Below, one piece after another: positions 8,594 to 23,545 of a stretch of DNA of 34,794 bases; within the stretch, counting starts at the first letter, position 1, and every line of letters starts with the position of its first letter. The stretch is taken from positions 1 to 34,794 of the forward strand of contig DWXO01000026.1 in the NCBI GenBank assembly GCA_019119165.1, in the 5' to 3' direction. The stretch comes from Candidatus Flavonifractor intestinigallinarum (GTDB lineage: Bacteria > Bacillota > Clostridia > Oscillospirales > Oscillospiraceae). The translations under genes were made by a program, and so were the position numbers. A model generated the notes under the pieces. It was not told where the DNA came from. It did not search any database and worked only from the letters and a program-made list of their open reading frames with translations.

Positions 8594-8703
8594 GTGCACT
8601 TCTCCCTTCCGTCCGGCCATACACACCGCCGGACCCGGAATCGCAGAGGCGCTTGCGTACAGATGACGCTGCCCCACAGGCATCGTCCATACCAGATAGT
8701 CTT

Positions 8704-8732
8704 AGTTTATCCCGTTATCCAAATGATGTCAA
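8704..8732 (-). promoter_or_regulatory. Near-consensus promoter of the TetR gene
   Basis: On the minus strand, TTGACA (8732-8727), a 17-bp spacer and TAAACT (8709-8704). This gives a leader of about 100 nt before the ATG at 8593. The spacer and -10 contain TTATCC twice, but no clear palindrome was seen here. Confidence 0.7.
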
Positions 8733-8852
8733 GACAATCTGGAGCCCTCCCCCCTCCCCCGGGCGTTCCAGTATTCCGCACAAGGTTTTCCTCCCATTTT
8801 TGTTTAAAACACATATTCTTCCTTTTTTCGTCTGATAATAACAGAATAACAC

Positions 8853-8928
8853 TTGACAGTATGGTGTTGTTATGATACTCTCTAGCCACAGTAATAATTA
8901 TTACCGAACGATTCATTGAAATTATTAC
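8853..8928 (+). promoter_or_regulatory. Promoter and candidate TetR operators ahead of the decarboxylase gene
   Basis: TTGACA at 8853-8858 with a -10-like GATACT at 8874-8879 (15-bp spacer, shorter than ideal). AGTAT (8858-8862) and ATACT (8875-8879) form imperfect inverted arms across this promoter. Just downstream, GTAATAATTATTAC (8891-8904) is a perfect 14-bp palindrome, and its half AATTATTAC recurs at 8920-8928, 24 bp further. The regulator's tandem DNA-binding domains make repeated half-sites of interest. An AAGGAGAGG ribosome site follows at 8929-8937. Confidence 0.55.
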
Positions 8929-8946
8929 AAGGAGAGGATATCTGGT

Positions 8947-9945
8947 ATGAAGCGCATCGACCTGGAAAACCATTTTTACGACCAAAGCCTGATAGACGCG
9001 TTGGCCGGCCGGACCATGCCCCCCCGCTATGACGCCAAAACCGACGTCATCCACTGGACGGACAACATCACCATGCCCCAGGGCGCTCTGCTGCAGAAGC
9101 TGCTGGACGTGGGCGAGAAGCGTCTGGAGCTGATGGACCGTCAGGGCATCACCCAGGCTGTCCTCAACTGTTCCCCCGGCGCGGAGGAGCTGCCCGCCGC
9201 CGACAGCATTGCCGCCTGCCGGGCTACCAACGACGCCCTGTATCAGCTGACCCGCCGCCATCCCGACCGTTTCCTGGGCAGCGCCATCCTGCCGGTGGGG
9301 GATGTGGACGCCGCTCTGGAGGAGCTGGAGCGGTGCGTGAAGGAATACGGCTTTGTCAGCTGGCACACCCACTCCAACTACGGCGACACCTCCGCCGACG
9401 ATCCCCGCTACCGTCCCCTGTTCCATAAGGCGGCCGAGCTGGGCGTCTACGTCTACCTCCACCCCCAGCTGCCCAAGGGCCAGCGGTACGAGGGCTTCGG
9501 CTTCACCTTTGCCGGTCCCGGCCTGGGCTTTACCGTGGATACCGTGACCACCCTGCTGCGGATGGTGGTGTCCGGCCTGTTCGATGAGGTGCCTCAGCTC
9601 AAGCTGGTGCTGGGCCATCTGGGCGAGGGCCTGCCCTTCCTGATGGAACGGATCGAGAACCGGATCAAATTTTTGCCCAACCCCGCTCTTCAATGTAAGC
9701 AGGATCTGCGGTATTATTTCCGTAATAACATCTGGGTCACCACCAGCGGCAATATGTCCAAAGAGGCCTTCCAGTGTACCAAGGACGTGCTGGGGATGGA
9801 CCGCATCCTCTTCGCCAGCGACTACCCCTACGAGTCCGTGGAAGATATGATGACCTTCCTGGGTCAGCTTCCCCTGAGCCAGGAAGAGACGGAACAGCTC
9901 TATTTCCACAACGCCCAGCAGGCGTTGGGTATCCCTCAGATCTGA
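8947..9945 (+). CDS. Amidohydrolase-family decarboxylase (ACMSD/gamma-resorcylate decarboxylase-like)
   Basis: Probably a cytoplasmic metal-dependent decarboxylase of a carboxylic, perhaps aromatic, acid; 332 residues. The amidohydrolase-2 fold is suggested by E7 and H9 in DLENHF (the ExH form of the metal motif used by decarboxylases of this family), H172 in LHPQ, H224 in GHLGEGLP and D292 in FASDYPYESV. The ExH instead of HxH pattern and the GHLGE segment point to the gamma-resorcylate/2,3-dihydroxybenzoate decarboxylase branch rather than to hydrolases. The substrate cannot be read from sequence. It is the first gene after the divergent TetR regulator and is followed 13 nt later by an MFS carrier of the oxalate/formate-antiporter type, suggesting uptake, decarboxylation and export of the product. 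Confidence 0.82.
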   Translation: MKRIDLENHFYDQSLIDALAGRTMPPRYDAKTDVIHWTDNITMPQGALLQKLLDVGEKRLELMDRQGITQAVLNCSPGAEELPAADSIAACRATNDALYQLTRRHPDRFLGSAILPVGDVDAALEELERCVKEYGFVSWHTHSNYGDTSADDPRYRPLFHKAAELGVYVYLHPQLPKGQRYEGFGFTFAGPGLGFTVDTVTTLLRMVVSGLFDEVPQLKLVLGHLGEGLPFLMERIENRIKFLPNPALQCKQDLRYYFRNNIWVTTSGNMSKEAFQCTKDVLGMDRILFASDYPYESVEDMMTFLGQLPLSQEETEQLYFHNAQQALGIPQI

Positions 9946-11313: not shown

Positions 11314-11359
11314 AAAAAGGCCCGCCGCAGGCTGTTGCACCTGCGGCGGGCCGCTTTTT
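11314..11359. terminator. Bidirectional terminator between the MFS gene and the redox-lipoprotein operon
   Basis: GGCCCGCCGCAGG (11319-11331) pairs with CCTGCGGCGGGCC (11340-11352) around an 8-nt loop. It is flanked by AAAAA on the left and GCTTTTTG on the right, so it can stop transcription from both sides. Confidence 0.88.
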
Positions 11360-11362
11360 GTC

Positions 11363-11869
11363 TTATGGGTTGTAAGATAATTCCGCACTCAGCCGGAGAT
11401 AGCATTCTTCCCGGTTTTCCGGAGTGATGAGGCACAGCCGTGCCCCCGGCAGGGACCGCACCCGATTTAGGAAGGGAGTTTGCGCCGGTTTGACGGCGGC
11501 CAGGGCCAGACTGCTGCGGCACATCAGCTCCACCACCGCCTGCTGGAAGCGGGGCGCTTCCTCCTCCAGCACCCCCAGCTCATCCAGCACCGTCACCTCT
11601 CCCGGTGGGATGGCCTCCAGCCACACCGCCGCCCGCTGGAAGGCCTCCGGGAAGGCTCGCCGGGGCTGTCCCGGCAGCCGCTGCCCCACCCGGTTCTCGT
11701 CTCCGTATCGGGGTGGCTGCCCCATTGGGTGGATGTAGATGGAAAAGCCCTCCCCCTCCGCCTCCTTGCGAGTCCAGAACCCCCGGGCCTCCGGGAGCCG
11801 GTCTCCCAGCAGGCGGCGGATCAGGGTGGTCTTGCCCACGCCGATCTCACCTTGGATCAGCAGGATCAT
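11363..11869 (-). CDS. Small P-loop nucleoside triphosphatase (THEP1/NTPase_1-like)
   Basis: A cytoplasmic P-loop protein of 168 residues. Walker A is GEIGVGKTT (7-15), near the N-terminus, and a Walker-B-like VTVLDELGVLE lies at about 92-102. This spacing and the DELG(V/P)(L/M)E signature fit the THEP1-type NTPase family (about 170-190 residues). That family hydrolyses nucleoside triphosphates in vitro and has no settled cellular role. It is the last gene of the eight-gene operon and starts at the ATGA overlap with the preceding lipoprotein gene, so it is clearly co-translated with it. A role in loading or processing a nucleotide-containing cofactor is conceivable but only a guess. The family call is by motif only. 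Confidence 0.75.
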   Translation of the reverse strand: MILLIQGEIGVGKTTLIRRLLGDRLPEARGFWTRKEAEGEGFSIYIHPMGQPPRYGDENRVGQRLPGQPRRAFPEAFQRAAVWLEAIPPGEVTVLDELGVLEEEAPRFQQAVVELMCRSSLALAAVKPAQTPFLNRVRSLPGARLCLITPENREECYLRLSAELSYNP

Positions 11870-12444
11870 TCCGCCCCACCTCCGTAATATTTGGCGGTAT
11901 GGTAGGCAAACAGCCCCTGGAGCATGGAGGTGATGTTGCCGGTGGACACCGAGGCCCCGGTGACCGCGTCGGCATCCACCCCTGCGATCTGCGTGCCGTA
12001 GCCCTCCCAGGCATCCAGGTCCGCCTTGGTGGCCTTCACCAGCATCTGGACAAAATGCTCGTCCATGTATTCCTCGGTATACTCGTCAATGTAGTAATTG
12101 GGGTTGCTGTCCCCCCATAAGCCCTGGTTGTTGCCGAAGCTGATGGCCCGGATGGCGGCGTCCTCCGGGTCCTCCTTGTTGTTAAGCAGCTCCACATAGG
12201 CCACCGACATATAGTTGACGATGGAATCCCGGCAGGTGCAGGAGGGGAATGCCACCTGATAGCTGGTAAAGGTGGAGTTGCTCTGCTCAAAGAGGATCAC
12301 CGCCGTCTCCTGGCTGTCCGCCCCGCCGGAGGCATAGTGGGTAAAGGTGAAGGTGGGAAATTCCCCCTCCCCCTGGACATTTTCTCCGCCTCCGCAGCCG
12401 GACAGCAGAAGCAGCAGGGCCAGCACCGCCGCCGCCCGCCTCAT
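11866..12444 (-). CDS. Lipoprotein with a C-terminal covalent-flavin (FMN-binding) motif
   Basis: An exported lipoprotein of 192 residues with lipobox LSGC (C17). A CxC pair (C69, C71 in PSCTC) lies mid-protein. Near the C-terminus D159-A-V-T-G-A-S165 matches the ApbE flavinylation pattern D-x-x-(S/T)-G-A-(T/S), as in NqrC, RnfG and FMN_bind domains, with Ser rather than the usual Thr as acceptor. It is therefore probably an extracytoplasmic one-electron carrier with covalent FMN. The rest of the protein is not recognised. It has ATGA overlaps with the genes on both sides (12441-12444 and 11866-11869). No apbE transferase gene is in the window. Flavinylation is predicted only. Confidence 0.78.
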   Translation of the reverse strand: MRRAAAVLALLLLLSGCGGGENVQGEGEFPTFTFTHYASGGADSQETAVILFEQSNSTFTSYQVAFPSCTCRDSIVNYMSVAYVELLNNKEDPEDAAIRAISFGNNQGLWGDSNPNYYIDEYTEEYMDEHFVQMLVKATKADLDAWEGYGTQIAGVDADAVTGASVSTGNITSMLQGLFAYHTAKYYGGGAE

Positions 12445-13127
12445 GTTCCGTCCTCCAGGGGATGGAGCCGGTCAAAGTCCAGGTAGGCGTAGTCCGCCCG
12501 CCAGGTGGCGTAGATCTTCTCCCCGTCGACGTCCTCGGGGTAGATCACCAGCTCCTGGGCGTGGTCGCCGGTATAGGTCCAGTTGGCCCCCACGTTGTAC
12601 AGCAGCTCCGGGTCCCAGCCCAGGTAGATCAGCAGTTCCTTCATCATGCCCGCGTAACCGCCCCCGCCGCACATGAGGAAAATGGCCTGATCCTTGGGGA
12701 ACAGCTCCTCCAGGATCAGCTCCGACTCCTCATACAGGGGCCTGGCCTGGGCCACGGTGCCGTCCTCCGCCCAGGTCACCTCATAGAGGCACTCCCCCTC
12801 ATAGCCGCCGGACACCGGCAGGGTTTGGAGGGTGGCCAGGTAGGGATAGGGCACAATGCGGAAGCCCTCGATGGTGCGGGTCAGGTCGGCCTCCCCGCCG
12901 ATCTCACCGTAGTTGGCGGGATCGAAGAGCAGCCGCACATCCCGGTAGGCCACGTCCTCCCGGCCTAGGTACTGGTCGATGGTCTCCATATTGATGTTGC
13001 TGTCCACACCGAAGGGGCTGTCTCCCATGGGCTCCGGCGGCGGCAGGCTGGCCTGCCCATCTCCGGCGCAGCCGGACAGGCACAGACACAGCGCCAGCGC
13101 CGTCCCACATACACGCTTGCTTCTCAT
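12441..13127 (-). CDS. Rhodanese-like lipoprotein
   Basis: An exported lipoprotein of 228 residues with lipobox LSGC (C20). The C-terminal part reads FLMCGGGGYAGMMKELL, followed by LGWDPELLYNVGANWTYTG. This resembles a rhodanese active-site loop (C153 followed by a Gly-rich turn and a helix) and the following sheet. The N-terminal part has REDVAYRDVRLLFDP, like the first rhodanese strand. Rhodaneses move sulfane sulfur through the active-site Cys. An exported lipid-anchored one beside flavin carriers and an iron-type importer hints at extracytoplasmic sulfur or thiol chemistry. ATG 13127 is chosen because GGAGGA lies upstream; the frame extends further but without a ribosome site. It overlaps the next gene as ATGA. 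Confidence 0.7.
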   Translation of the reverse strand: MRSKRVCGTALALCLCLSGCAGDGQASLPPPEPMGDSPFGVDSNINMETIDQYLGREDVAYRDVRLLFDPANYGEIGGEADLTRTIEGFRIVPYPYLATLQTLPVSGGYEGECLYEVTWAEDGTVAQARPLYEESELILEELFPKDQAIFLMCGGGGYAGMMKELLIYLGWDPELLYNVGANWTYTGDHAQELVIYPEDVDGEKIYATWRADYAYLDFDRLHPLEDGT

Positions 13128-13152
13128 TTCCACATCCTCCTTTGACCGGCAA

Positions 13153-13181
13153 GGGCCGGGGGCAGACTCCGCCCCCGGCCC
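13153..13181 (-). terminator. Intercistronic GC hairpin
   Basis: GGGCCGGGGGC (13153-13163) pairs with GCCCCCGGCCC (13171-13181), 11 bp with a 7-nt loop. It lies between the tandem-repeat lipoprotein and the rhodanese-like lipoprotein. There is no U-run, so it is more likely an mRNA-stabilising or partial-termination hairpin than a full terminator. Confidence 0.55.
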
Positions 13182-13194
13182 TGTTGGTCCCAGA

Positions 13195-14196
13195 TCACTG
13201 GGCCACGATCTCCACCACCAGCTTGCAGTAGGCTTTGGAGGAGGTCTCCAGGCAGGGAGCCACCCAGACGGTGCCCTCCTCGCCGGTCTCCTTGTCCTTC
13301 TCAATGGCCAGCAGGGTATATTCGCTGTCGGCGCTCTCCAGATCCAGCTCGGTCTCGTAGCCGTCGTTGGCCACCGCCTTCACGCTGGTATAGCCCTCCG
13401 CGCCGCAGGCGGCCAGCACGTCGCTGAGCCGGTAGCCGGTGTAGGTGGAGGTGGAGGTCTCCCCGGCGCTGTTGGTGACGGTGGCGTCGATCTTGTAGAT
13501 GCTCAGCCCCGCCAGGGTATCGTTGGTCACTTCCGTACCGTTCACCAGGAAGGAATAGGGGGCAAACTCCACCTTGTCGGTGCGGTCCTGGATCTCAGGG
13601 ACGCCGCCGGTTTCACCGCCGGATTCGCCGCTCTGAGCGGGCTGCTGGGTCTCGCCGCCGTCCACGGCAATGGCCACCATGCCCTTCAGATAGTCGCCGG
13701 TGGTGCTGGAGGAGCAGGGGGCAAACCAGGGGGAGCTCTTGAACTGCTCCCCGTCCTTGGAGATGGCCACCAATGTGGTGGGCGCGGCGGCGGTGGCCTG
13801 ATCCACCTCCACCTCGTAGCCGTCGTCAGCGGCGGCGGTGACGGTGGTATAACTCTCCACACCGGCGGCGGCCAGCACGTCAGACAGGGCAAAGCCCACA
13901 TAGACGCAGGTGGACTCGGTCCCGGCGCTGTTCACCGAGGTGGCCTGGACCTGATACACCGGATACTCCGCCATGGTCTCGTTGGTGATATCGGTTCCGT
14001 TGACATTGATGGTGAAGGAAGGAATGGTGACCCCCTTCACCTCCTCCGCCGTGGGCTCCCCGCCGGTCTGGGGACTCTCCACTACGGGCGTGGTGCCGGC
14101 GGGGGTCTCGGTGGTGGGCGTTCCGGTCTCTCCGCCGCAGGCGCACAGCACCAGCAGCATGGTAAGGGACAGCAGCAATGCGGTCATTCGTTTCAT
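13195..14196 (-). CDS. Lipoprotein with two tandem domains resembling the sulfite-oxidase fold
   Basis: A predicted exported lipoprotein of 333 residues with lipobox-like LCAC (C20) and a Thr/Pro-rich spacer. Two homologous domains of about 120 residues follow. Each reads F-x-(I/L)-V/N-NGT-(D/E)-(I/V)-TN, then Y-(Q/K)-(V/I)-x-AT, then (G/Y)-x-LSDVLAA-(A/C)-G, then A-x-DGYE, then AP-C near the end. The LSDVLAAxG ... DGYE pattern resembles the oxidoreductase molybdopterin-binding (SUOX-like) fold. No conserved Mo-ligating Cys is visible, so it may bind another ligand or act structurally. ATG 14196 is chosen because AAGGAGAG is 6 nt upstream; ATG 14202 directly abuts that site. It lies 47 nt after the ABC ATPase gene in the same operon. 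Confidence 0.7.
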   Translation of the reverse strand: MKRMTALLLSLTMLLVLCACGGETGTPTTETPAGTTPVVESPQTGGEPTAEEVKGVTIPSFTINVNGTDITNETMAEYPVYQVQATSVNSAGTESTCVYVGFALSDVLAAAGVESYTTVTAAADDGYEVEVDQATAAAPTTLVAISKDGEQFKSSPWFAPCSSSTTGDYLKGMVAIAVDGGETQQPAQSGESGGETGGVPEIQDRTDKVEFAPYSFLVNGTEVTNDTLAGLSIYKIDATVTNSAGETSTSTYTGYRLSDVLAACGAEGYTSVKAVANDGYETELDLESADSEYTLLAIEKDKETGEEGTVWVAPCLETSSKAYCKLVVEIVAQ

Positions 14197-14243
14197 TTCC
14201 ATCTCTCCTTTTCTATTCTCATCCCAATGGGAACGAGTACCTG

Positions 14244-15020
14244 TTAAAGGGGCGGGTAGAGGCACACCCGCCGGCCCAGCTCTTCATTATAGCGCACCAG
14301 CAGCTGGGTATCGTAGATCTGCCGCAACAGCTCCTCGGTGAGCAGCTCCTCCGCCGGTCCGGAGCGCAGGCAGCCCTGCCGGTCCAGCACCGCCGCCGTC
14401 CCGCCCAGCAGGATGGCGTGGTCCGGGTTGTGGGTGGTGACCACCGTGGCGTAGCCCTCCTCCGACAGGCGGCGGACCATCCGCAGCACCCGCAGCTGGT
14501 TGCCGAAGTCCAGGTGGGCGGTGGGTTCGTCAAAGAGCACCACCTTGGGGTGGCGGACGATGGCTCGGGCCACGGTGGCCTGCTGCCGCTCGCCGCCGCT
14601 GATGTCGGTGTAGGGCCGGTGGGCCAGATGGGATAAGCCCATGGCCTCCAGGGCCTGCTCTGCCTCCCGCCGGTCCTCCGGCCCCGGCCGGGCCAGGGGG
14701 GAAAGGAGGGCCGCCCGGCCCATAAGTACAAACTCCAGCACGGAGTAGTCAAAGACCGGGGTGTGGTTCTGGGGCACATAGCCCGCCAGCCTGGCAATCT
14801 CCCGCTCGCTCATGGCGGTGATGTCCCGCCCGCACAGGCGGACGGCCCCCGCCCGGGTGGGCAGCAGGCCCATCATGCAGTTGAGGAGGGTGCTCTTGCC
14901 CGCGCCGTTGGGGCCCAGCACCGTCAAAATCTCCCCCTCCTTCAGGGTGAGACACACCTGCTCCAGCACCGGGGGCCCGCCGGGGTAGGAAAAATTCAGA
15001 TCATGGATTTCATAGAGCAT
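14244..15020 (-). CDS. ABC transporter ATP-binding protein, FecE/BtuD type
   Basis: Cytoplasmic ATPase of a metal-chelate importer, 258 residues. It has Walker A GPNGAGKST (36-44), a Q-loop in GYVPQNHTPVFDYSVLEFVLMGR, signature ISGGERQ, Walker B VVLFDEPTAHLDFGNQ and switch His in VTTHNPDHA. The VLEFVLMGR and HLDFGNQ segments are characteristic of the iron-siderophore/haem/cobalamin (FecE, BtuD) group. The gene overlaps the permease gene by 11 nt. The ligand is most likely an iron complex, haem or a corrinoid, but the sequence does not separate these. Confidence 0.93.
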   Translation of the reverse strand: MLYEIHDLNFSYPGGPPVLEQVCLTLKEGEILTVLGPNGAGKSTLLNCMMGLLPTRAGAVRLCGRDITAMSEREIARLAGYVPQNHTPVFDYSVLEFVLMGRAALLSPLARPGPEDRREAEQALEAMGLSHLAHRPYTDISGGERQQATVARAIVRHPKVVLFDEPTAHLDFGNQLRVLRMVRRLSEEGYATVVTTHNPDHAILLGGTAAVLDRQGCLRSGPAEELLTEELLRQIYDTQLLVRYNEELGRRVCLYPPL

Positions 15021-16029
15021 GGCCCGCCCTCCTTTGCCGCCACAGCAGCCAGCCGTAGAAGGGGGCCCCCATCAGTCCGGTAAGGATGCTCACCGGCATC
15101 TCCTCCGCCCCGATGGTGCGGGTGAGGGTGTCCACCACCAGCAGAAACAGCCCGCCCAACAGGGCGGACACCGGCAGCAGCCTGGTGTGGCCCGGCCCGG
15201 CCAGCATCCGGCCCAAATGGGGGATGGTGAGGCCCACCCAGCTGATGGTGCCCGCCAAACACACCGACGAGGCGGTGAGGAGGGTGGCGCACAGGATCAC
15301 CGTGCCCCGCACCGCGCTCACCGGCAGGCCCAGAGCCCGGGCCTCGGTCTCCCCCATGGACAGCACGTCAATGCGCCAGCCCATGAGAATGAGCACCACC
15401 GCCGGGATAAGCAGGAAGGGCAGGGCGGGCAGCAGGTCCTCCAGGGCCAGATAGTTGAAGCCTCCCATGGTCCAGTAGGTGATGGCGGCCAGCTGGGTCT
15501 CCGGGTCGGCGGTGTATTTGAGAAAGCCCAGCAGAGAGGACATGGCGGATCCCACGATGATACCCGAGAGCACCAGCATCAGGTTGGCCCGGCTGCGCAG
15601 CAGCATGGGCAGGGTTACCGTCAGCCCCACCGCCAGCAGGCCGCCGGCAAAGGCAAAGAGCTGGACCCACCCACTGGTGAGGGAGAGGAGGATGGCCGCC
15701 GCCGCCCCCACGCAGGCGCCCCCCGACACCCCCAGAAAGTCCGGGGAGATCAGCGGGTTTTGAAACACGCCCTGATAGGCCGCGCCGGAAACCGACAGGG
15801 CGGCTCCCACCAGGATGCTGGCCAGGATGCGGGGGACCCGCAGGCCCAGCACTACGTTTGCCGTCATCTGGTCGGCAGCCCCGCCGCCGGTCAGAGCCCC
15901 CCACAATACACTCAGGCTCTCCCAGGGGGTCACCGGATACTTCCCCACGCACACTGCCAGCACCGCACCCACCGGCAGCAACACCGCCAGCAGAGGGATG
16001 AGCCATGGATTTCTTTTCCGTCCCCTCAT
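15010..16029 (-). CDS. FecCD-family metal-chelate ABC permease
   Basis: Membrane subunit of 339 residues, the normal FecCD/BtuC length, with about ten hydrophobic segments. Family hallmarks are LRVPRILASILVGAALSVSG near the first periplasmic loop, FQNPLISPDFLGVSGGACVG, GWRIDVLSMGETEARALGLP (the coupling helix contacting the ATPase) and FVGLTIPHLGR-like SWVGLTIPHLGRMLAGPGH. Its stop overlaps the ATPase gene by 11 nt and its start overlaps the binding-protein gene as ATGA (16026-16029), the tight packing usual for such importers. Only one permease gene is present, so it should act as a homodimer. Confidence 0.93.
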   Translation of the reverse strand: MRGRKRNPWLIPLLAVLLPVGAVLAVCVGKYPVTPWESLSVLWGALTGGGAADQMTANVVLGLRVPRILASILVGAALSVSGAAYQGVFQNPLISPDFLGVSGGACVGAAAAILLSLTSGWVQLFAFAGGLLAVGLTVTLPMLLRSRANLMLVLSGIIVGSAMSSLLGFLKYTADPETQLAAITYWTMGGFNYLALEDLLPALPFLLIPAVVLILMGWRIDVLSMGETEARALGLPVSAVRGTVILCATLLTASSVCLAGTISWVGLTIPHLGRMLAGPGHTRLLPVSALLGGLFLLVVDTLTRTIGAEEMPVSILTGLMGAPFYGWLLWRQRRAGHAL

Positions 16030-17072
16030 GTCAGCGTATACCCCAGGTAGTCCGCATCAAAGGTGCGGCCGAAGAGGAAGGTATAGTAGTCCTCAATCTC
16101 CGCCTCCAGTTCCTGGGTGGAGAAGGCATCCGGATACATGGTGTGGAGCATCCAGAAGGTACCCAGCACACTGGCCACCCCCGGCATATCCCAGGTGTCA
16201 ATACGAGCGGGAATCTGGTACACCCGCCCGTCTTCCACCGCCGCCAGGGCGCTCCAGGCCGGATCGGTAAGCAGCTCCTCCGGCGTATAGTCCAGAGCCG
16301 CCGAGCTGGTACAGAAGAGGTACTGGGGGTTCCAGGAGAACACCGTCTCCACTCCCACGTTCATCCAGTTACTGTCGTTGGTCACCTGGGCAGAGACGCT
16401 GATACCCCCCGCCTTTTCAATCATCCAGGACTGGAGCATATCTCCCCCGGCAATGCGGCCCGGCTCGCTGCCCATCACCAGCGCGGTGACCCGCTCCTCC
16501 TGGGGGATGCCTGCCACAATCTCGTCGATGATCTCAAATTTGCCCTCCATCCAGGCGATGACCTCCTCCGCCCGGTCCTCCCGGCCGAAGTAGGTCCCCA
16601 GCAGCCGGAGGGTCTGGTAGATTCCCTCCAGGTCCTCCCCGGAGATGCACACCACATCGATGCCCAGTCGCTCCACCGCCTCCACCGTCTCCCTGTCGTT
16701 GGCCCGGTGGACCAGCACGGTGGCGCCGCTGGCCGCCAGGGCCTCCAGATCCACCACGCCCCGGCCCACCGTGCCCGCCTCGTCCAGAGCGGGCACCGCG
16801 TCGGTCCAGAAAGAGGACTTGGCATTGACCGCCACCACCTGCTCCGACAGGCCCAGGGCCACCAGGAAGGGCACCGCCGTGCCGTACACCGAGGCGATCT
16901 TCTCCTCCGCCGGGTCCTCCGGCAGGGCCAGGGTCCGGCCCGCGCCGTCGGTAACCGTCTCCCCCGTAGGAGCGGGAGACTGCTGGGACTGGCAGCCGCA
17001 GGCGCACAGGTTCAGGGTCAGCAGGACGGCCAGCAGCAGGGCGCAGAGTGATTTTCCGTTATGCCTGATCAT
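16026..17072 (-). CDS. Lipid-anchored substrate-binding protein of a metal-chelate ABC importer
   Basis: An extracytoplasmic receptor of 348 residues with signal peptide and lipobox-like LCAC (C25). It has the Peripla_BP_2 (FecB/BtuF) arrangement: an N-terminal lobe starting TVTDGAGRTLALPEDPAEEKIAS, then DLEALAASGATVLVH, a long linker helix (LRLLGTYFGREDRAEEVIAWM), and a C-terminal lobe with PEELLTDPAWSALAAVEDGRVYQIP and a final helix. The start ATG at 17072 has GGAGGGAGCGG before it. The ligand is a metal chelate, haem or corrinoid by family; a decision between them is not possible from motifs. It lies 13 nt downstream of the large repeat lipoprotein, so both are on one transcript. Confidence 0.92.
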   Translation of the reverse strand: MIRHNGKSLCALLLAVLLTLNLCACGCQSQQSPAPTGETVTDGAGRTLALPEDPAEEKIASVYGTAVPFLVALGLSEQVVAVNAKSSFWTDAVPALDEAGTVGRGVVDLEALAASGATVLVHRANDRETVEAVERLGIDVVCISGEDLEGIYQTLRLLGTYFGREDRAEEVIAWMEGKFEIIDEIVAGIPQEERVTALVMGSEPGRIAGGDMLQSWMIEKAGGISVSAQVTNDSNWMNVGVETVFSWNPQYLFCTSSAALDYTPEELLTDPAWSALAAVEDGRVYQIPARIDTWDMPGVASVLGTFWMLHTMYPDAFSTQELEAEIEDYYTFLFGRTFDADYLGYTLT

Positions 17073-17085
17073 TTCCGCTCCCTCC

Positions 17086-20000
17086 TTACCCGATGGGGCC
17101 GCTGCCCGGCACCGTCACCACCAGCTTGTTGAAATACTTCACCGACGCCCCCTGCACCGTCTCGGCAATGATGCGCAGAGGCCCGCTGCTGTTGCCCGCG
17201 GTGCCGGTATAGCCCTCGTGGCTCTCCTCATCCACCAGGGGGGCGCCGTTGATGGCGTAGGCAATGATGATCTTCTTCCGCTGGCCCTCCGGGTCCAGCA
17301 CCCCCTGCTCCAGGCCGTCCATGGCAAAGACGCTGAGCAGGTCATTTTTATAGCCGTCAGAGGCATAGGCCGTCACCGACACCGGCTGGTCGATGCCGGG
17401 CACCTCCCCCGCCTCCTGGAGCACCAGCCCCCACAGGTCGATGCCCTCGCAGGTGCCCAGCTCCAGCACGGCATAGTCGTCCCGGACGATAAGGCTGTCC
17501 ATGGCCTCCAGCTGTTCCACCGTATAGTCCCGGGTCCACTCGTGGTCATCGTTGCGGATGGTGAGGGTCATGGTGTCGTCCAAAAACTCGCTGTACACAT
17601 CGCTCATGGCGTGGCTCCAGGTGTCCACCTGGTTGGCCGACACCTGGATGGACACTACATTCTCCACCCACAGCGCTCCGTTTTTCGCGTCCTCCCCGTC
17701 CATGGGCACCACCAGCTTCAGGGGACCGCCGGTCTCCTCGGTCAGGGGGGCTCCCCCCTGGCCGTCCACCGGACCGGTGCCGTAGGCCAGCAGGGCGCAC
17801 ACCGGCTGCTTCTCCGGGGCGGCGTAGTTGGTATAATTGACTCCCTTCAGCAGGGACAGGGGCAGGGTGACGCTGGTGCCGTCGGCAGAGGTCACTGTCA
17901 CTTCCCCGGCGTTGTTGCACAGCCCCACCTCAGTGAGCAGCTGGTACACGGGGATGCCCCGATACCGCTGCTGGGTCAGGCCATCTTGGTCCAACAGGCT
18001 GAAATCCATGGTCTTGGCCTGGGTCTGGTGGCTCTCCAACTCCGCCACGGTGAGAGTCAGCTCCTGGGTCAGGCCGGGGCCGGACAGGGTCACGGTCCGG
18101 TCCGCCAGAGCAGCGGCCTCCCCCTCCAGATGGGCGTAGGGGTCCGGCTCCAGCTCCACCCGAATGGAGGTGACCCCCCGGATCTGCCGGGCCTCCTCCT
18201 CCCCCTGGGCGGGCAGAAGCACCGTCAGCGGACCGCCCTGGTTGTCCACCCAGTAGGTGGCCGGGTCCTGGCTGTCCGTGGGGTACAGGGGCAGGCTCTC
18301 GGTGTAGCCCCCGTCCCCCGCCGTTCCCACCAGGGGAGCGCCGTTTTTGGCAAAGGCCAGTACGCTCAAAAGGCCGCTCTTGCCGGTGACGCTGTTGTAG
18401 CCCGGCAGGAACAGGTCCTCCAGAGACACGGTGACCTCCTCCCCGCCGCCGGAGAAGGTGACGCTTCCCACTGTCCCCGGCAAACCGGCGTAGTCCATCA
18501 GCAGATATTCCAGGCTCACGCCCTCGTAGACGTCGGACTGGTCGGGCTGATCGGGCCGCTGATAGCGGTCCTTTACCGACGCGGAGGCCCGGTCGGCCCC
18601 CTCGCCGTAGACCAGGTTTTCCACCTCGCCCACCGTCAGGGTGCGCTCCAGCAGCTGCTTGCCCGCCTCGTCCACCACCTCCAGCCGGACGGATTCCTCC
18701 GCCAGGGCCCGGCAATCCGGGTCGTCTGCGTACAGGTGGGTCTGATAGAACACGTCCTCCCCCACGATGACCTGGCTTACATACTGCACCTGGTTGGAGC
18801 CGTTGGCGTGGTTGTACTGGGTCTTGCCGAACACCACCCGCATGGGGCCGCCGCTGTTGGCCAGGCCGGACAGATAGCCCTCGTCCCCCCGGTCCACGGT
18901 GTAGGGGTAGCGGTTGACGCCGTAGGCCAGCAGCACCGGGTAGCCGGTATCCACCAGATCGGCGTTGGTGGGCACATAGCTGCCGTCCCCGGGGTCGGCG
19001 GCGTTTTTGTTGTAGAAGCCGAAGGCGTCCGGGTAGGACAGAGCCTCCACCGAGAAGGACTCGGGGGACAGGCGGCCGTCGGCGGCCTGGAAGGTGACGA
19101 TGGTGGTGCGGGACTCCGCCCGTCCCAGCTCCTCGGCGCTGTCCATGCCCAGATAGCACAGCAGCCGGTACAGGTCCAGCCCCTCATACTCGTTGACGTA
19201 CCAGTAGGCGTTGTTGGCCAGGCTGTAGCTGTCCCGCCACCCCAGCCCGCCCTCCTGGGGCTGTCCCTCCTCATCGTAGCGCACCAGCTCCTCCAGCTGG
19301 GACACCGTCAGGTCCAGCTCCGCCCCCAGGGCGTCGCCCCGGAAGGTGAGGATGTACTCTCCGTAGTCGGCGCTGCCGTAGGGGCCGCCGTCGTGCTTGT
19401 AGCCCGGCTCCTCCCCCTCCCGGACATAGAGGTAGGCCACGTTGGAGAAGGTCTTATAGTCCCCCTCCATCTCCCACCGGTCCAGATCATACACCAGCCG
19501 GAGGCAGCCATCCTCATTGTCCAGCTCCTCCACATAGCCCAGAGAGTGCTCCCCCTCGGCCTTGGCGTCAAAGACGAAGGGGGCGGCCAGGGTGCCGTCG
19601 GTCGTACCCACACCGTAGGCCAGCAGGATGGGACGGCCCTGCTGGCTGGCCTGGGCCACCTGGTCCAGCGGAATGACGGCCAGGGTGTTGCGGTTGCAGT
19701 CCTTCAGCTCCACATGGGTGGCGGTATCGGTAAGAAAAATGCCGCTGTCCCCACCCGTCATCTCGTAGAGCACGGTGTACAGGTCCACCCCCTCGTAGAC
19801 CCGCACGCCGCTGCTGTCCTCATAGGCCCCACGGAAGAGGCCCTCCGTCCGGTTCTCCAGTTCCCGGATGGACAGGGGCGTGGAGGATACCACCCCCGGT
19901 CCCTCCACCGTCAGGGTGGCTCCGGTGATGGCGTCCACGTTGTAGGGCAGCTCCTCGTCCTCGGTAATGCCGCCGTTGGTGATGTGCTTGTACGCCGAGG

Positions 20001-20106
20001 TGGAAAAGTCAATGGTGCTGTTGTCAATGTCGGGCAGCTCTTCCCGGCAGCCAGACAGCATTGCCGCCGCCAGCAGCAGCATCCCCACCAGCCAGATCCG
20101 CTTCAT
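17086..20106 (-). CDS. Giant lipoprotein with a flavinylation motif and five SUOX-like repeats
   Basis: Exported lipoprotein of 1006 residues, first gene of the operon, lipobox LSGC (C20). D58-A-I-T-G-A-T64 fits the ApbE covalent-FMN pattern D-x-x-(S/T)-G-A-T, so T64 probably carries FMN. Five homologous units follow. Each has (Y/C)-(E/R)-G-(V/I/L)-x-(L/V)-(Y/E/W) plus helix, then a VTVTSADG-like strand, then (L/I)LAYG or NGAPL, then GGPL+(L/V)VV, then a closing V-x-S-I-x-V strand. This resembles repeated oxidoreductase-molybdopterin (SUOX-like) domains, but the Mo-ligating Cys is not conserved between units, so real cofactor binding is doubtful. ATG 20106 is chosen for GGGAGG 6 nt upstream. 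Function unknown; probably an extracellular redox scaffold or receptor working with the importer. Confidence 0.75.
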   Translation of the reverse strand: MKRIWLVGMLLLAAAMLSGCREELPDIDNSTIDFSTSAYKHITNGGITEDEELPYNVDAITGATLTVEGPGVVSSTPLSIRELENRTEGLFRGAYEDSSGVRVYEGVDLYTVLYEMTGGDSGIFLTDTATHVELKDCNRNTLAVIPLDQVAQASQQGRPILLAYGVGTTDGTLAAPFVFDAKAEGEHSLGYVEELDNEDGCLRLVYDLDRWEMEGDYKTFSNVAYLYVREGEEPGYKHDGGPYGSADYGEYILTFRGDALGAELDLTVSQLEELVRYDEEGQPQEGGLGWRDSYSLANNAYWYVNEYEGLDLYRLLCYLGMDSAEELGRAESRTTIVTFQAADGRLSPESFSVEALSYPDAFGFYNKNAADPGDGSYVPTNADLVDTGYPVLLAYGVNRYPYTVDRGDEGYLSGLANSGGPMRVVFGKTQYNHANGSNQVQYVSQVIVGEDVFYQTHLYADDPDCRALAEESVRLEVVDEAGKQLLERTLTVGEVENLVYGEGADRASASVKDRYQRPDQPDQSDVYEGVSLEYLLMDYAGLPGTVGSVTFSGGGEEVTVSLEDLFLPGYNSVTGKSGLLSVLAFAKNGAPLVGTAGDGGYTESLPLYPTDSQDPATYWVDNQGGPLTVLLPAQGEEEARQIRGVTSIRVELEPDPYAHLEGEAAALADRTVTLSGPGLTQELTLTVAELESHQTQAKTMDFSLLDQDGLTQQRYRGIPVYQLLTEVGLCNNAGEVTVTSADGTSVTLPLSLLKGVNYTNYAAPEKQPVCALLAYGTGPVDGQGGAPLTEETGGPLKLVVPMDGEDAKNGALWVENVVSIQVSANQVDTWSHAMSDVYSEFLDDTMTLTIRNDDHEWTRDYTVEQLEAMDSLIVRDDYAVLELGTCEGIDLWGLVLQEAGEVPGIDQPVSVTAYASDGYKNDLLSVFAMDGLEQGVLDPEGQRKKIIIAYAINGAPLVDEESHEGYTGTAGNSSGPLRIIAETVQGASVKYFNKLVVTVPGSGPIG

Positions 20107-20128
20107 TCCACACCCTCCCAAAGCAAAA

Positions 20129-20229
20129 GGACCTTTGTCACCCAGCGATCCCGCAGTTTTCTCTCACCGCGTCTGCTTGCTGACAAAGGTCCCCATCATA
20201 TGCCCGACCCCTTTTCAAACGAAAAGTCC
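20129..20229 (-). ncRNA. Structured 5' leader with terminator-like and competing stems
   Basis: Within the roughly 130-nt leader between promoter and the start at 20106. In RNA sense, GGACCUUUGUCA (20192-20181) pairs with UGACAAAGGUCC (20140-20129). The stem encloses 40 nt that hold a second hairpin (CGCGGU with ACUGCG). The outer stem is followed by UUUUGCUUU, as in an intrinsic terminator. Further upstream, GGACUUUU (20229-20222) can instead pair with AAAGGUCC, the 3' arm of the terminator stem, giving an antiterminator. GGACUUUU also belongs to a local hairpin (CUUUUC-GUUU-GAAAAG). This is the layout of a riboswitch or attenuator. It matches no riboswitch class I could recognise. Confidence 0.5.
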
Positions 20230-20243: not shown

Positions 20244-20272
20244 ATTGTATCATTTTATTGTTCACTTGTCAA
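20244..20272 (-). promoter_or_regulatory. Near-consensus sigma-A promoter of the eight-gene operon
   Basis: Minus strand: TTGACA (20272-20267), exactly 17 bp, TACAAT (20249-20244). Transcription should start near 20237, giving a leader of about 130 nt that contains the structured element. The -35 box overlaps the end of a degraded gene fragment. Confidence 0.85.
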
Positions 20273-20518: not shown

Positions 20519-21220
20519 GTGGATATTTTTAAGGAACTCCCTCCGCAGAAACGAAGCTATATGGAGTTTCTGTTCCGGAACTGTACCGAAGAGGTCAAGT
20601 ATTACATGACCCTCATCGACATTGAGGCGGACCGGACCTTCATCAAGGCGGGCACAGACTGTACCCATATCTTCGTGATCCTCTCCGGCAAGGTGACCGG
20701 CGTGGAGTGGCCCATGCACGAGCGCCCCTATTCCTTCAAGGATTTCGGGCCAGGGGACTTTTTCGGCGAGATCGAGTGCTTTGCCGGGCTGCCCCAGTAC
20801 CGCATCAGCATCGTGGCCTCCACCAAGTGCCGGGTGCTCTCCATTCCGGCGGACGCCTACATGGATTGGATGCGGATGGATGTGGACGCCCTCTTTCTGC
20901 GGACACAGGAAAATATGCGCCGGCTCATCACCCAGACCGCCGAGGCCCGGAAGTACCTGTTCATGGAGGGCAAGGACCGGCTGATGGTCCATCTGATCCG
21001 CAAATTCGAGCAGCGTATCCCCACACCCCAGCTGCTGGAGCTGAAACAGACCCGCGCCCAGATCTCGGATGAGATCGGCTTTTCCGTCAAGACCCTGGAG
21101 CGCAGCATCCAGAAGCTGGAGGAACTGGACCTGATCCGGGTCCAGCGGGGCAAAATCATCATCACCCAGGATGGCTACCGCCGCATGAAGGACCATATCG
21201 AGCATCACATCAACGGCTGA
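20519..21220 (+). CDS. Crp/Fnr-family transcription regulator
   Basis: A cytoplasmic regulator of 233 residues. It has an N-terminal cyclic-nucleotide-binding-like beta barrel (about 20-125; FIKAGTDCTHIFVILSGKVTG, GPGDFFGEIECFAG, YRISIVASTKCRVLSIP), a dimerisation helix, and a C-terminal winged helix (about 155-225; QTRAQISDEIGFSVKTLERS, IQKLEELDLI). The barrel lacks an Fnr-type cysteine cluster, so it is not an oxygen sensor of that kind. The phosphate-binding pocket differs from canonical Crp, so the effector is unknown. The start is GTG 20519 behind AAGGAGGT. Only 39 bp separate it from the xanthine dehydrogenase genes on the same strand, so it is probably co-transcribed with and controls them. 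Confidence 0.88.
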   Translation: MDIFKELPPQKRSYMEFLFRNCTEEVKYYMTLIDIEADRTFIKAGTDCTHIFVILSGKVTGVEWPMHERPYSFKDFGPGDFFGEIECFAGLPQYRISIVASTKCRVLSIPADAYMDWMRMDVDALFLRTQENMRRLITQTAEARKYLFMEGKDRLMVHLIRKFEQRIPTPQLLELKQTRAQISDEIGFSVKTLERSIQKLEELDLIRVQRGKIIITQDGYRRMKDHIEHHING

Positions 21221-21259
21221 AGCCAGCACCATCAACGAACAGACAAGGAGGAACGCGCC

Positions 21260-23545
21260 ATGTATGTAGGAAAGAAAGCCACCCGTGTGGACGCCTATGA
21301 CAAGGTCATCGGGCGCACCAAATATACCGACGATCTCTGTGATAAGGGCGCCTATGTGGCCCAGGTGCTCCACGCCACCATCGCAAACGGCCGGGTGAAG
21401 TCCATCGACACCTCGGCGGCGGAGGCCATTCCCGGCGTGGTCAAGGTCTTTACCTGCTTTGACTTGAAGGAGAAGCACTACTTCCCCACCGCCGGACACC
21501 CCTGGTCCACCGACGAGAGCCACCAGGATGTGGCCGACCGACTGGTACTTACCGACCGGGTCCGCTTCTACGGCGACGACATCGCCGCAGTGGTGGCGGA
21601 GGACGAGGTATCCGCCGCCCAGGCCCTCCGGGCCATCAAAGTGGAGTATGAGGAGTATCCCTTCGTGCTGGACGTGCTGGAGGCCATGAAGGATGGCGCG
21701 CCCCAGCTCCACGAGGCCTACCCCAACAACATTCTCAAGCACACCACCATCCGCAAGGGCAACTATGAGGAGGCCATCAAGGAGCCCGGCCTCATCAAAG
21801 TGGAGGGCTGGTATGAGACTCCCACCGTCCAGCACTGCCACATTGAAAACTTCATCTGCTACGCCGAGATGAACGGCGACCGGATCAAGATCGTCACCTC
21901 TACCCAGATCCCCCACATCGTCCGCCGGGTGGTGGGCCAGGCTCTGGGCATCGAGTGGGGCAAGATCCAGGTTATCAAGCCCTACATCGGCGGCGGCTTC
22001 GGCAACAAGCAGGATGTGCTCTACGAGCCCCTGTGCGCCTGGCTGTGTATGCAGCTGGGCGGCCATCTGGTGAAGCTGGATGTGCCCCGTGAGGACACCT
22101 TCGTTTCCACCCGGGTGCGCCACGCCATCCGCAGCCACATCATCTCCTGGGTGCGGCCCGACGGCACCTATGCCGCCCGCAAGCTGGAGGCCTTCTCCGA
22201 CCAGGGCGCCTACGCCTCCCACGGCCACAGCATCTGCGCCAAGGGCGCGGGCGCCTTCCCCCAGCTCTACCCCTGCGACAATGTGGAGGTGGACGCCTAT
22301 ACCGTCTTTACCAACAAATCCGTGGCCGGCGCCATGCGCGGCTATGGTATCCCTCAGGCCATGTGGGCCGCCGAGTGCCACACCGAGGAGGTCGCCGCCA
22401 AGCTGGGCATGGACCCCATCGCGTTCCGGCGGAAGAACCTGATGCCGGTGGGCTACACCGACCCCTTCTCCAAAAACGAGCTGTATGCCGATACCTTCAA
22501 CCAGTGCATGGACAAGGGCATGGAGGTCACCGACTATCTGCGGAAATATGAGGCCTACCAGAACCAGACCGGCGACATCCGCCGGGGCATCGGCATGGCG
22601 GTGTTCTGGTACAACACCGCTGTGTGGCCCATCTCCCTGGAGACCTCCTCCTGCCGGATGGTCCTCAACCAGGACGGCTCCCTCCAGGTCCAGGTGGGCG
22701 AGACTGAGATCGGCCAGGGCGCGGACACCGCCTTCTCCCAGATGACCGCCGACGTGGTGGGCGTTCCCCTGGACAAGGTCCATGTGGTGTCCTGCCAGGA
22801 TACCGACGTCACCCCCTTCGGCACCGGCGCTTACGCCTCCCGCCAGACCTACACCGCCGGCTTTGCCATCCGGCAGACCGGCTCTCTGCTGAAAGAGCGT
22901 ATCCTCAAGTACGCCCATGAGCTGACCCGGATGCCCCCCTATAACCTGGACATCATCGACGGCAACATCGTCCGCATCACCGACGGCCGGGTGCTGATGA
23001 CCCTGGGCGACCTGGCCACCGAGGCCCTGTACAGCCTGACCCACAGCCAGCACCTCACCGCTGAGAGCACCGCCCAGATCAAGTCCAATGCCTACTCCTT
23101 CGGCTGCACCTTCGCCGAAGTGGAAGTGGATATCCCCATGTGCAAGGTGAAGCTGCTGGATCTGGTCAACGTCCACGACGCCGGCACCATCATCAACCCC
23201 GCCCTGGCGGAGGCCCAGGTCCACGGCGGCATGAGCATGGGCATCGGCTTCGGCCTGTCGGAGAAGCTGCTCTTCGATTCCAAGAGCGGTAAGGCTTTGA
23301 ACAACAATCTGCTGGACTACAAGCTGTCCACCTTTATGGACCACCCCCGGCTGCGGGCCTTCTTCGTGGAGAATCCCGAGCCCACCAGCGCCTTCGGCAC
23401 CAAGGCCCTGGGCGAGCCGCCCACCTGCTCGGTGGCCCCCGCCATCCGCAACGCGGTCTATCAGGCCACCGGCGTCTTTGTCAACGAGGCGCCCGTCAAT
23501 CCCCACATCCTCTTCCGCCGCTTCAAGGAAGAGGGACTGATTTGA
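21260..23545 (+). CDS. xdhA: Xanthine dehydrogenase, molybdenum-binding subunit
   Basis: Large catalytic subunit, 761 residues, of a cytoplasmic molybdenum hydroxylase that oxidises purines or related heterocycles with water. It starts with the aldehyde/xanthine dehydrogenase a/b hammerhead (VGKKATRVDAYDKVIGRTKYTDD). Then come the Moco-binding segments IGGGFGNKQ (243-251), AMRGYGIPQ with R360, GETEIGQGADT, and the catalytic Glu E719 in TKALGEPP. Length matches XdhA of the three-subunit type. The nearest relatives by motif are XdhA and the nicotinate/aldehyde branch, so the substrate is not certain; the purine permease downstream favours xanthine or hypoxanthine. Ribosome site AAGGAGG at 21245-21251. 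It is followed 17 nt later by the FAD subunit. Confidence 0.9.
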   Translation: MYVGKKATRVDAYDKVIGRTKYTDDLCDKGAYVAQVLHATIANGRVKSIDTSAAEAIPGVVKVFTCFDLKEKHYFPTAGHPWSTDESHQDVADRLVLTDRVRFYGDDIAAVVAEDEVSAAQALRAIKVEYEEYPFVLDVLEAMKDGAPQLHEAYPNNILKHTTIRKGNYEEAIKEPGLIKVEGWYETPTVQHCHIENFICYAEMNGDRIKIVTSTQIPHIVRRVVGQALGIEWGKIQVIKPYIGGGFGNKQDVLYEPLCAWLCMQLGGHLVKLDVPREDTFVSTRVRHAIRSHIISWVRPDGTYAARKLEAFSDQGAYASHGHSICAKGAGAFPQLYPCDNVEVDAYTVFTNKSVAGAMRGYGIPQAMWAAECHTEEVAAKLGMDPIAFRRKNLMPVGYTDPFSKNELYADTFNQCMDKGMEVTDYLRKYEAYQNQTGDIRRGIGMAVFWYNTAVWPISLETSSCRMVLNQDGSLQVQVGETEIGQGADTAFSQMTADVVGVPLDKVHVVSCQDTDVTPFGTGAYASRQTYTAGFAIRQTGSLLKERILKYAHELTRMPPYNLDIIDGNIVRITDGRVLMTLGDLATEALYSLTHSQHLTAESTAQIKSNAYSFGCTFAEVEVDIPMCKVKLLDLVNVHDAGTIINPALAEAQVHGGMSMGIGFGLSEKLLFDSKSGKALNNNLLDYKLSTFMDHPRLRAFFVENPEPTSAFGTKALGEPPTCSVAPAIRNAVYQATGVFVNEAPVNPHILFRRFKEEGLI

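Follow-up and report, generated by a model that had tools for sequence, protein, structure and literature searches.

Introduction

The window analysed here, a stretch of 34,794 nt from Candidatus Flavonifractor intestinigallinarum, contains an operon in which a metal-chelate-type importer is encoded together with lipoproteins of SUOX-like, flavin-type and rhodanese-like character, and this combination raises the question of which compound such a system would capture and import. The first-pass annotation of this DNA proposed an extracellular redox system that reduces or frees a metal complex before import, or that uses an imported metal cofactor. The evidence set out below indicates that the operon very probably has a role of some kind in Mo/W-cofactor metabolism. 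We give an even chance to the more specific reading that Moco/Tuco (or molybdopterin) is captured outside the cell and imported by a system not yet described, of which this operon would be the FecBCD version.

Organization of the operon

The ORF list and translations place eight minus-strand ORFs, running from 20106 to 11363, in one operon, and all eight lie in the order first claimed for them (Table 1). The tight packing stands as well, although overlaps occur at four of the seven junctions (4 nt each at FecB/FecC, rhodanese-like/FMN and FMN/THEP1, and 11 nt at FecC/FecD) and not at five, the remaining three having gaps of 13, 47 and 67 nt. The leader of 141 nt has a folding z of -3.3 and its hairpin stem is kept in the related locus L007; no Rfam aptamer was recognised in it, and RF01055, the Moco/W-cofactor riboswitch, was not found there even at E≤10. 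The plasmid collection searched gave no match.

Table 1. Features of the operon and of its flanking signals, in the direction of transcription
Feature	Position	Strand	Evidence
Sigma-70-like promoter TTGACA-17-TACAAT, TG ahead of -10	20244..20272	-	11/12 consensus positions; 1.3 sites expected by chance in the scanned region
Leader hairpin followed by T-run (terminator-like), possible attenuator	20128..20194	-	Folding z, stem in L007
Large lipoprotein, 1006 aa	17086..20106	-	Lipobox LSGC, DAITGAT aa 58-64, five SUOX-like repeats
FecB-type substrate-binding lipoprotein	16026..17072	-	Peripla_BP_2 2e-25 (Pfam)
FecCD-type permease	15010..16029	-	FecCD PF01032 2e-79 (Pfam)
Importer ABC ATPase	14244..15020	-	ABC_tran PF00005 3e-32 (Pfam)
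Small lipoprotein, two SUOX-like domains without Mo-ligating Cys	13195..14196	-	PF00174 3.9e-12, two stretches
Rhodanese-like lipoprotein	12441..13127	-	Invariant C153 in MCGGGGY
Divergent FMN_bind lipoprotein	11866..12444	-	DAVTGAS aa 159-165
THEP1/NTPase_1 P-loop NTPase	11363..11869	-	NTPase_1 PF03266 1.8e-14 (Pfam); no signal peptide seen
Terminator-like hairpin at operon end	11319..11352	-	14-pair stem, T-tail

The Pfam matches bear out both the metal-chelate-type ABC importer, with binding lipoprotein, permease and ATPase in one operon, and the THEP1-like NTPase. Among the profile matches of the FecB-type protein, HI_1472 (3psa/3psh), which we take to be MolA, is fourth (6e-20), and 4hn9 (7.5e-39) is closer. 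Molybdate itself is the substrate of MolBC-A, an importer belonging to this class (PMC4031551), and the HI_1472 match thus speaks for the main rival reading, namely uptake of an oxyanion: molybdate, tungstate or, in the sulfidic gut, thio-molybdate or thio-tungstate. In that version the rhodanese-like and FMN lipoproteins would strip sulfur or shift the redox state and the SUOX-like domains would bind the oxyanion. We regard oxyanion uptake as rather unlikely, for reasons that lie in the genomic context.

SUOX-like domains

The SUOX-like domains claimed in two lipoproteins are upheld by Oxidored_molyb matches in the large (5.6e-10, one stretch) and the small protein. The predicted secondary structure of the large lipoprotein was read as five beta-alpha repeats, which by our reading gives seven such domains in the two proteins. 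Foldseek matched the fold to SorA, SorT, SUOX and YedY, with E down to 2.8e-8, and the best structural matches for the small domain are PruR chains (TM 0.68-0.72 on target), one of which, 7rkb, holds neopterin. PDB sequence searches with the SUOX proteins returned no SUOX relative; among structures, such relatives were reached by fold comparison only.

Nevertheless, at the places that can be checked these domains lack a hallmark of sulfite oxidases and do not resemble such enzymes. Of 25 SUOX-type proteins examined, 20 gave pattern matches, 31 in all, among them both domains of the small lipoprotein and three repeats of the large one of the window, and the Mo-ligating Cys before W.G..L is missing from every match; the pattern matched neither the other five proteins nor two repeats of the large lipoprotein. 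E. coli MsrP, taken for comparison, has the Cys. In alignment A5 of the small SUOX lipoprotein, which omits the L015 protein (stop within frame), all 12 rows have N-S at the Mo-ligating place of domain 1; the partial L008 and L019 were omitted from the alignments. It is therefore extremely unlikely that the SUOX-like proteins are extracellular Mo/W oxidoreductases that hold a cofactor which the importer recycles, even though their PF00174 similarity exceeds the cut-off and a 2008 paper, in the part available, read such genes of Syntrophomonas wolfei as putative Moco enzymes (PMC2408646).

The resemblance to PruR, which binds pterins in the periplasm without the Mo-ligating Cys (PMC13259868), suggests instead that the operon might import or sense a simple free pterin of the monapterin or neopterin type, and so feed cofactor metabolism or report on it, much as PruR would in a Gram-positive setting. 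Small pterins fit the PruR pocket, which, according to the accessible part of that review, is probably too small for Moco (PMC13259868), a point that counts against Moco as the ligand. We consider this reading improbable for several reasons: first, PruR acts in signalling together with a partner regulator of the DcpA type, and Pfam found no GGDEF, EAL or kinase domain, as in a DcpA/DTB-type partner, in the eight operon proteins of the window, nor was a cyclic-di-GMP or kinase domain found in the scanned proteins of the sister operons described below. Second, the riboswitch that precedes several related operons has the metal cofactor as its presumed ligand (PMC2408646). Third, unless it were a precursor such as cPMP or MPT, a free pterin could not substitute for MoaA and MoaC.

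Flavin-type and rhodanese-like lipoproteins

Both ApbE-type motifs that had been reported, DAITGAT in the large lipoprotein and DAVTGAS in the FMN lipoprotein, are seen in the translations, and counting from ATG starts at 20106 and 12444 confirms the numbering of T64 and S165. Each agrees with the flavinylation motif D-x-x-[S/T]-G-A-[S/T] (PMC12052999). With the window included, the motif is kept in 8 of 11 rows for each of the two proteins; the three exceptions have A at position 4 in the DAVTGAS protein and read DAITSAT in the large lipoprotein. In the proposed check with the FMN_bind profile, both proteins of the window score below the Pfam cut-off (14.9 and 15.5 against 22 bits). At E≤1, FMN_bind matches all 11 aligned DAVTGAS proteins, that of the window among them, with a best value of 3.4e-5, and the DAITGAT of the large lipoprotein falls outside any full FMN_bind match; a PDB search with the FMN alignment gave no match. 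An apbE gene, expected elsewhere in the genome, is present in the host and in all five genomes with a window-type operon that were searched.

For the rhodanese-like lipoprotein, the MCGGGGY loop is invariant, whereas a Pfam Rhodanese match was found in none of 10 orthologues. A weak profile match leads to rhodanese 6mxv (E=0.046), and the model, of low confidence (pLDDT 60.8), has as its weak top Foldseek match the sulfurtransferase 1e0c (E=0.32, prob 0.35).

Riboswitches and tungsten enzymes near orthologous operons

The core of the operon, comprising the large lipoprotein, FecBCD and the small SUOX lipoprotein, has the same order in ten other genomes; the conservation of gene order, proposed as a check in the first-pass annotation, is far beyond chance. 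RF01055 lies directly upstream of the orthologous operon at 4 of 13 loci, and two of these 13 (L008 and L019) are without the upstream region; at gathering score it was not found in L007, L009, L010, L013, L014, L015, L018 or L049. An aldehyde oxidoreductase (AOR), whose metal we take to be tungsten, is near the orthologous operon in four loci, and AOR, ThiF or MoeA genes occur at L010, L011, L014, L016 and L018.

This context argues against the first-pass proposal, taken as an extracellular flavin/SUOX chain by which a chelated metal, of the iron type or another, would be reduced and released ahead of uptake through FecBCD. The FecBCD class suits chelates and flavinylation genes adjoining iron transporters have been described (PMC8238504), but neither an iron regulator nor a siderophore gene is present among the 20 flanking ORFs of the window and 10 scanned flanking ORFs of relatives, and what is seen instead is a Mo/W riboswitch and Mo/W enzymes. 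A metal-chelate reduction system is accordingly very unlikely: RF01055, the SUOX sister operons and the nearby AOR, ThiF and MoeA genes all indicate metabolism of a Mo/W pterin cofactor. Of the original idea, the importer and the flavin-type and SUOX-fold lipoproteins stand and the general or iron-type metal complex does not, and its alternative clause, use of a metal cofactor that is imported, is near to the reading preferred here.

The same neighbours are also consistent with oxyanion uptake, given that the AOR enzymes presumably require tungsten. Molybdate transporters, too, are among the genes under Moco riboswitches (PMC2408646), and modA of the host genome is likewise under a riboswitch of the RF01055 family. 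On the other hand, the host, which has moaA, moaC and moeA, already possesses ModABC.

Sister operons and genomes without MoaA and MoaC

Sister operons, most of which have an ECF-type transporter, were reached with the small SUOX lipoprotein as query. The profile matched at least 96 genomes, many of the listed matches lying only in the first ~50 profile positions; 18 genomes, representing 11 genera and not independent of each other, were chosen by eye for matches beyond the signal-peptide region and low E-values, with G424 added for its rhodanese-like relative. In 16 of these 18, RF01055 precedes the profile match by 90-1711 bases on the same strand, where 0.02 within 2 kb is expected by chance; G955 has SUOX and ABC genes, and RF01055 was not found there. 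The small SUOX lipoprotein and an ECF-type one align with hhalign prob 98 and E=6e-15, signal peptide included, whereas the FMN lipoprotein and an ECF-type FMN_bind protein align at the motif only (hhalign prob 7). In Pfam scans of L096 and L107 the SUOX lipoproteins accompany ECF components and MobB, and several sister operons also carry FMN_bind, ApbE or a phosphodiesterase. L106 shows fusions of SUOX with a PF09819 S component and with a metallophosphoesterase, and L114 one with FMN_bind. To our knowledge, ECF transporters serve vitamins and Ni/Co, not oxyanions, and the phosphodiesterase, MobB and MobA-like partners presumably act on pterin nucleotides or similar compounds; both points disfavour oxyanion uptake.

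In six of the 18 followed genomes (G889, G930, G596, G743, G905 and G611) AOR is present and both MoaA and MoaC are absent. Uptake of an oxyanion would not cure this deficiency, and import of a pterin cofactor is therefore favoured over oxyanion import. In the stretches read, these genomes have the ECF type and not the FecBCD type; G611 has its SUOX gene alone at a contig end, and 7% contamination. The MoaA-less G925 (86% complete) and G311 gave no AOR match, and the SUOX-like protein of G311, without a PF00174 match, is assigned to SUOX by the A5 profile alone. For the window-type operon, MoaA is present in all five genomes searched, so that none of them depends on import.

Absence of MoaE was also considered as an argument for import. 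Of 24 genomes searched, 19 lack it, yet it is present in only 46 of 398 of the phylum sample, in which MoaC occurs in 264 of 398; as its absence is common across that sample and hence not specific, the argument was dropped.

A proposed model for cofactor capture and import

From this context we infer the ligand, the direction of transport and the step taken by each protein. In the proposed capture and import of Moco/Tuco or molybdopterin, the SUOX-fold lipoproteins, which keep the pterin-type fold and not the Mo-ligating Cys, would bind the pterin on the outer side of the membrane. The ApbE-loaded FMN lipoprotein would give electrons, probably holding the pterin/dithiolene or the metal at the right redox state, and the rhodanese-like lipoprotein may handle sulfur, for example a dithiolene or sulfido ligand. 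FecBCD would then bring the compound into the cell, where the THEP1-like NTPase would work at the place that MobB has in the ECF-type sister operons. Points that weigh against this reading are the lack of a recognised riboswitch in the leader of the window operon, the presence of MoaA, MoaC and ModABC in its host, the molybdate substrate of MolBC-A and the finding that the MoaA/MoaC-less genomes have the ECF type in the stretches read.

Beyond the window, and with somewhat less than an even chance, it is suggested that anaerobic Bacillota possess a widespread riboswitch-controlled salvage of the intact Mo/W pyranopterin cofactor (or molybdopterin), in which SUOX capture, extracellular phosphodiesterase trimming of dinucleotides, flavinylated redox control and ECF or FecBCD import would be combined. 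Some lineages without MoaA and MoaC might then live on the cofactor of others, making Moco/Tuco a shared vitamin.

The usual view of Moco and Tuco is that the cell that makes them is also the one that uses them. If the model is right, a cofactor thought to be confined to the producing cell becomes an exchangeable vitamin or nutrient in the gut, a bacterial importer would account for tungsten enzymes in genomes without MoaA and MoaC, and proteins annotated as molybdopterin oxidoreductases would gain a function. Within the literature searched, and as far as the accessible parts of these papers go, the sole demonstrated uptake is that of dietary Moco in C. elegans, whose route is not known (PMC9793310), and there is one bioinformatic suggestion, that some of the outer-membrane proteins of type 11 secretion in Proteobacteria may take up cobalamin or molybdopterin (PMC12282271). 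Import would also offer an answer to an exception noted in 2008, in which putative sulfite oxidase genes of S. wolfei are preceded by cofactor riboswitches lacking P3 (PMC2408646), genes known here from that paper's description only.

Comparison with known systems

The importer has the Peripla_BP_2 protein, FecCD permease and ATPase of the FecBCD/BtuCDF/MolBC-A type II importers, with HI_1472 among the FecB matches, whereas we know of no such operon with SUOX-like, rhodanese-like and FMN lipoproteins. The oxyanion importers TupABC, ModABC and WtpABC serve the same enzymes, and ModABC is under the same riboswitch family; their binding proteins and permeases belong to families other than FecBCD, and they are not known to have SUOX partners. 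The sister operons contain the module of ECF transporters (PF09819-type S, CbiQ T and two ATPases; Pfam, L096, L106 and L107) and differ from known ones in the S component fused to SUOX (L106) and in the attached MobB, phosphodiesterase and Mo/W riboswitch. With the ApbE-flavinylated extracytosolic electron-transfer systems the window operon shares the motif, the weak FMN_bind similarity and ApbE in the genome, and it differs in having no transmembrane electron-transfer gene; the main text of a paper on flavinylation systems, in the part available, makes no mention of molyb, SUOX or pterin (PMC8238504). Finally, PruR and the lipoproteins of the window have in common a SUOX-type fold, secretion and the missing Mo-ligating Cys. 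However, PruR is a single domain of Proteobacteria paired with a c-di-GMP or kinase regulator, whereas the proteins here are multi-domain lipoproteins within importer operons, several of them under Mo/W riboswitches.

Association with molybdenum and tungsten cofactors

Among the loci of window type (those with the FecBCD version of the operon), L011, L012, L016 and L017 carry the Moco/W-cofactor riboswitch RF01055 directly upstream of the operon. In 12/12 displayed RF01055 alignments (5 + 7; two more matches lie outside the displayed set) the P3 stem is either missing or reduced to a few bases, and passages of Regulski et al. (PMC2408646) propose that RNAs without P3 sense the tungsten cofactor. 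Four loci have genes for the tungsten aldehyde oxidoreductase (AOR) nearby: in L011 and L016 upstream, in L018 directly downstream, and in L010 ~2 kb downstream on the opposite strand; ThiF genes occur in L011 and L016, and a MoeA gene in L014. AOR is present in all five searched genomes with a window-type operon, as is apbE. RF01055 also precedes FecC, an ATPase and two FecB relatives in L056 (G087:C12), where nearby genes look nitrogenase-like and NifH-like by eye.

Within the window, xanthine dehydrogenase genes adjoin the operon. The same genome holds one cluster with moeA, moaC, moaA, moaB and modABC. One RF01055 copy sits inside this cluster, upstream of modA, and another at a contig end; in genome G022 the counterpart of the contig-end copy precedes the cluster's moeA part. 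No Rfam aptamer was found in the leader of the window operon, whose hairpin stem is also kept in L007.

Positions and gene content in the window and in loci fetched from other genomes (L numbers)
Locus	Position	Strand	Feature
Window	20272-20244	minus	Promoter-like site ahead of the operon genes
Window	20128-20194	minus	Terminator-like leader hairpin at the place of the relatives' Moco riboswitch
Window		minus	Operon genes in order: 1006-aa lipoprotein, FecB-type binding lipoprotein, FecCD permease, ABC ATPase, 333-aa, 228-aa and 192-aa lipoproteins, P-loop NTPase
Window	11352-11319	minus	Terminator-like hairpin, operon end
Window	20519-26537	plus	Divergent to the operon: Crp-type regulator, three-subunit xanthine dehydrogenase set, then xanthine/uracil-type permease
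L015	12811-13854		Small SUOX lipoprotein gene of this MAG, interrupted by a stop
L096	12122-13585		Aldehyde dehydrogenase downstream of RF01055
L116	7957-9600		Aldehyde dehydrogenase downstream of RF01055
L117	2595-4223		Aldehyde dehydrogenase downstream of RF01055
L111 (G424)	8466-9874		Distant FMN and rhodanese-like lipoprotein relatives side by side
L096			FMN_bind, SUOX, PF09819 S component, PF01663 phosphodiesterase, another SUOX, two ATPases, CbiQ, MobB (Pfam)
L107			SUOX, CbiQ, MobB; second SUOX just below cut-off; S-like protein without Pfam match (Pfam)
L106			SUOX, metallophosphoesterase-SUOX fusion, S component fused to SUOX
L114			ApbE, SUOX, FMN_bind-SUOX fusion, Fer4_5/FMN_bind membrane protein
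L098			Phosphodiesterase
L115			Riboswitch, S-like protein just below PF09819 cut-off, 156-aa protein without PF00174 match, MobA-like transferase

Folds and conservation of the window-type operon

Overlapping gene junctions exist as described in the first-pass annotation, but they number four of seven and not five; the overlap is 4 nt at three of them and 11 nt at the fourth. Pfam bore out the importer and the NTPase, and both SUOX-like lipoproteins match Oxidored_molyb. FMN_bind falls under the Pfam cut-off in the window proteins; 11/11 aligned DAVTGAS proteins (in the window, the 192-aa FMN lipoprotein) match it at E<=1, the best at 3.4e-5. An invariant cysteine loop, together with weak fold and profile matches, hints that the 228-aa lipoprotein may be rhodanese-like. 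The 1006-aa lipoprotein, as we read its predicted secondary structure, has five beta-alpha repeats, and fold comparison of its structure model (pLDDT 71.6) gave matches to sulfite dehydrogenases, to sulfite oxidase and YedY, and to the pterin-binding PruR. In MsrP the cysteine immediately ahead of the W.GF.L motif is the Mo ligand. Of 25 SUOX-type proteins checked, five gave no match to the pattern and 20 yielded 31 matches, some probably at false domain positions, with the MsrP-type cysteine absent at 31/31; three repeats of the large window lipoprotein were among those matched.

With one genome scanned per species, a FecB relative turned up at 13 loci, in nine of which (L007, L009-L016, with the small SUOX gene of L015 split) the order large lipoprotein-FecB-FecC-FecD-small SUOX lipoprotein is identical; L049, obtained outside the scan, is a tenth genome with this block. 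L008 and L019 are truncated by contig ends, and L017 and L018 hold FecBCD with the small SUOX lipoprotein. L014, L017 and L018 lack the rhodanese-like gene, and L017 and L018 also lack the FMN gene. THEP1 stands behind the block in L007, L011, L012, L016 and L017. Given that the DAVTGAS protein occurs in just 5/200 genomes of the family, the window's own counted, the operon is sporadic.

Sister operons

The profile of the small SUOX lipoprotein hit 96/398 phylum genomes among the matches listed, many through the signal peptide only, and 18 of these genomes, from 11 genera, were followed for sister operons, mostly of ECF type. In 16/18 genomes (9/11 by genus) a same-strand RF01055 precedes the profile match by 90-1711 bases, against a chance expectation of 0.02 within 2 kb, calculated with rounded genome sizes; the two exceptions are G611, with a cut contig and a genome without RF01055, and G955. 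ABC ATPase match pairs lie close to the SUOX gene in most of the followed loci. Pfam was run on part of the sister loci, the remainder being judged similar by N-terminal sequence. L102, in which the riboswitch is followed by SUOX and by FecCD, ATPase and FecB relatives, is a bridge between the FecBCD and ECF types. The THEP1 family recurs in L107 (Pfam) and, judged by similarity, L108 and L109, in each case divergent to the SUOX-ECF operon.

RF01055 occurs 26 times in the single genome G957. The aldehyde dehydrogenases downstream of RF01055 (Pfam on L116; missing P3 seen in L096) are perhaps a pterin-free substitute for AOR at cofactor shortage. FecBCD and SUOX relatives gave no match in 19 kb of L111.

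Possible pterin auxotrophy and the oxyanion alternative

MoaC is absent from 8/18 followed genomes (G889, G930, G596, G743, G905, G925, G311 and G611; for five of them, read from their not being on the complete list of 264 genomes with a match), and these eight lack MoaA too. AOR occurs in all of these except G925 and G311, in three genera, with a partial match in G905. The riboswitch, SUOX operon and AOR of G889 all lie on the one contig of its assembly (97% complete, 5% contaminated). A cell that has a pyranopterin enzyme but does not make cPMP must take the pterin from elsewhere, or use an unrecognised route. MoaE absence was dropped as a sign of import, being uninformative: MoaE was found in 46/398 genomes of the phylum sample versus 264/398 for MoaC, and most MoaC-bearing genomes seem to be without the canonical large subunit of molybdopterin synthase.

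Given that importers of this class are able to carry oxyanions, as passages on MolBC-A describe (PMC4031551), import of tungstate or molybdate by the operon remains the main rival to cofactor capture and import; the window's host, with its own MoaA and MoaC, could use either cofactor or oxyanion. For capture and import of the cofactor, we infer both the ligand and the order of steps.

Comparison with known systems

No bacterial system for uptake, salvage or import of Moco or molybdopterin appears in the literature searched, which includes few subscription papers; the literature there on ECF transporters with molybdenum or tungsten and on Moco riboswitch regulons shows none either. Passages of PMC3766115, PMC11477304, PMC13328260, PMC11980592, PMC9495176, PMC13119186, PMC12998232 and PMC8238504 do not mention such an import system, and one in PMC9495176 says that no transport protein takes part in the action of the MoCo RNA motif. 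According to a gap-filling study, Moco uptake as modelled for E. coli is unrealistic (passages of PMC3423039). Elsewhere, passages describe C. elegans taking Moco from its diet (PMC9793310) and suggest a role in molybdopterin uptake for type 11 secretion proteins (PMC12282271). PruR, a pterin binder of the periplasm, is likewise without the MsrP-type cysteine according to passages of PMC13259868.
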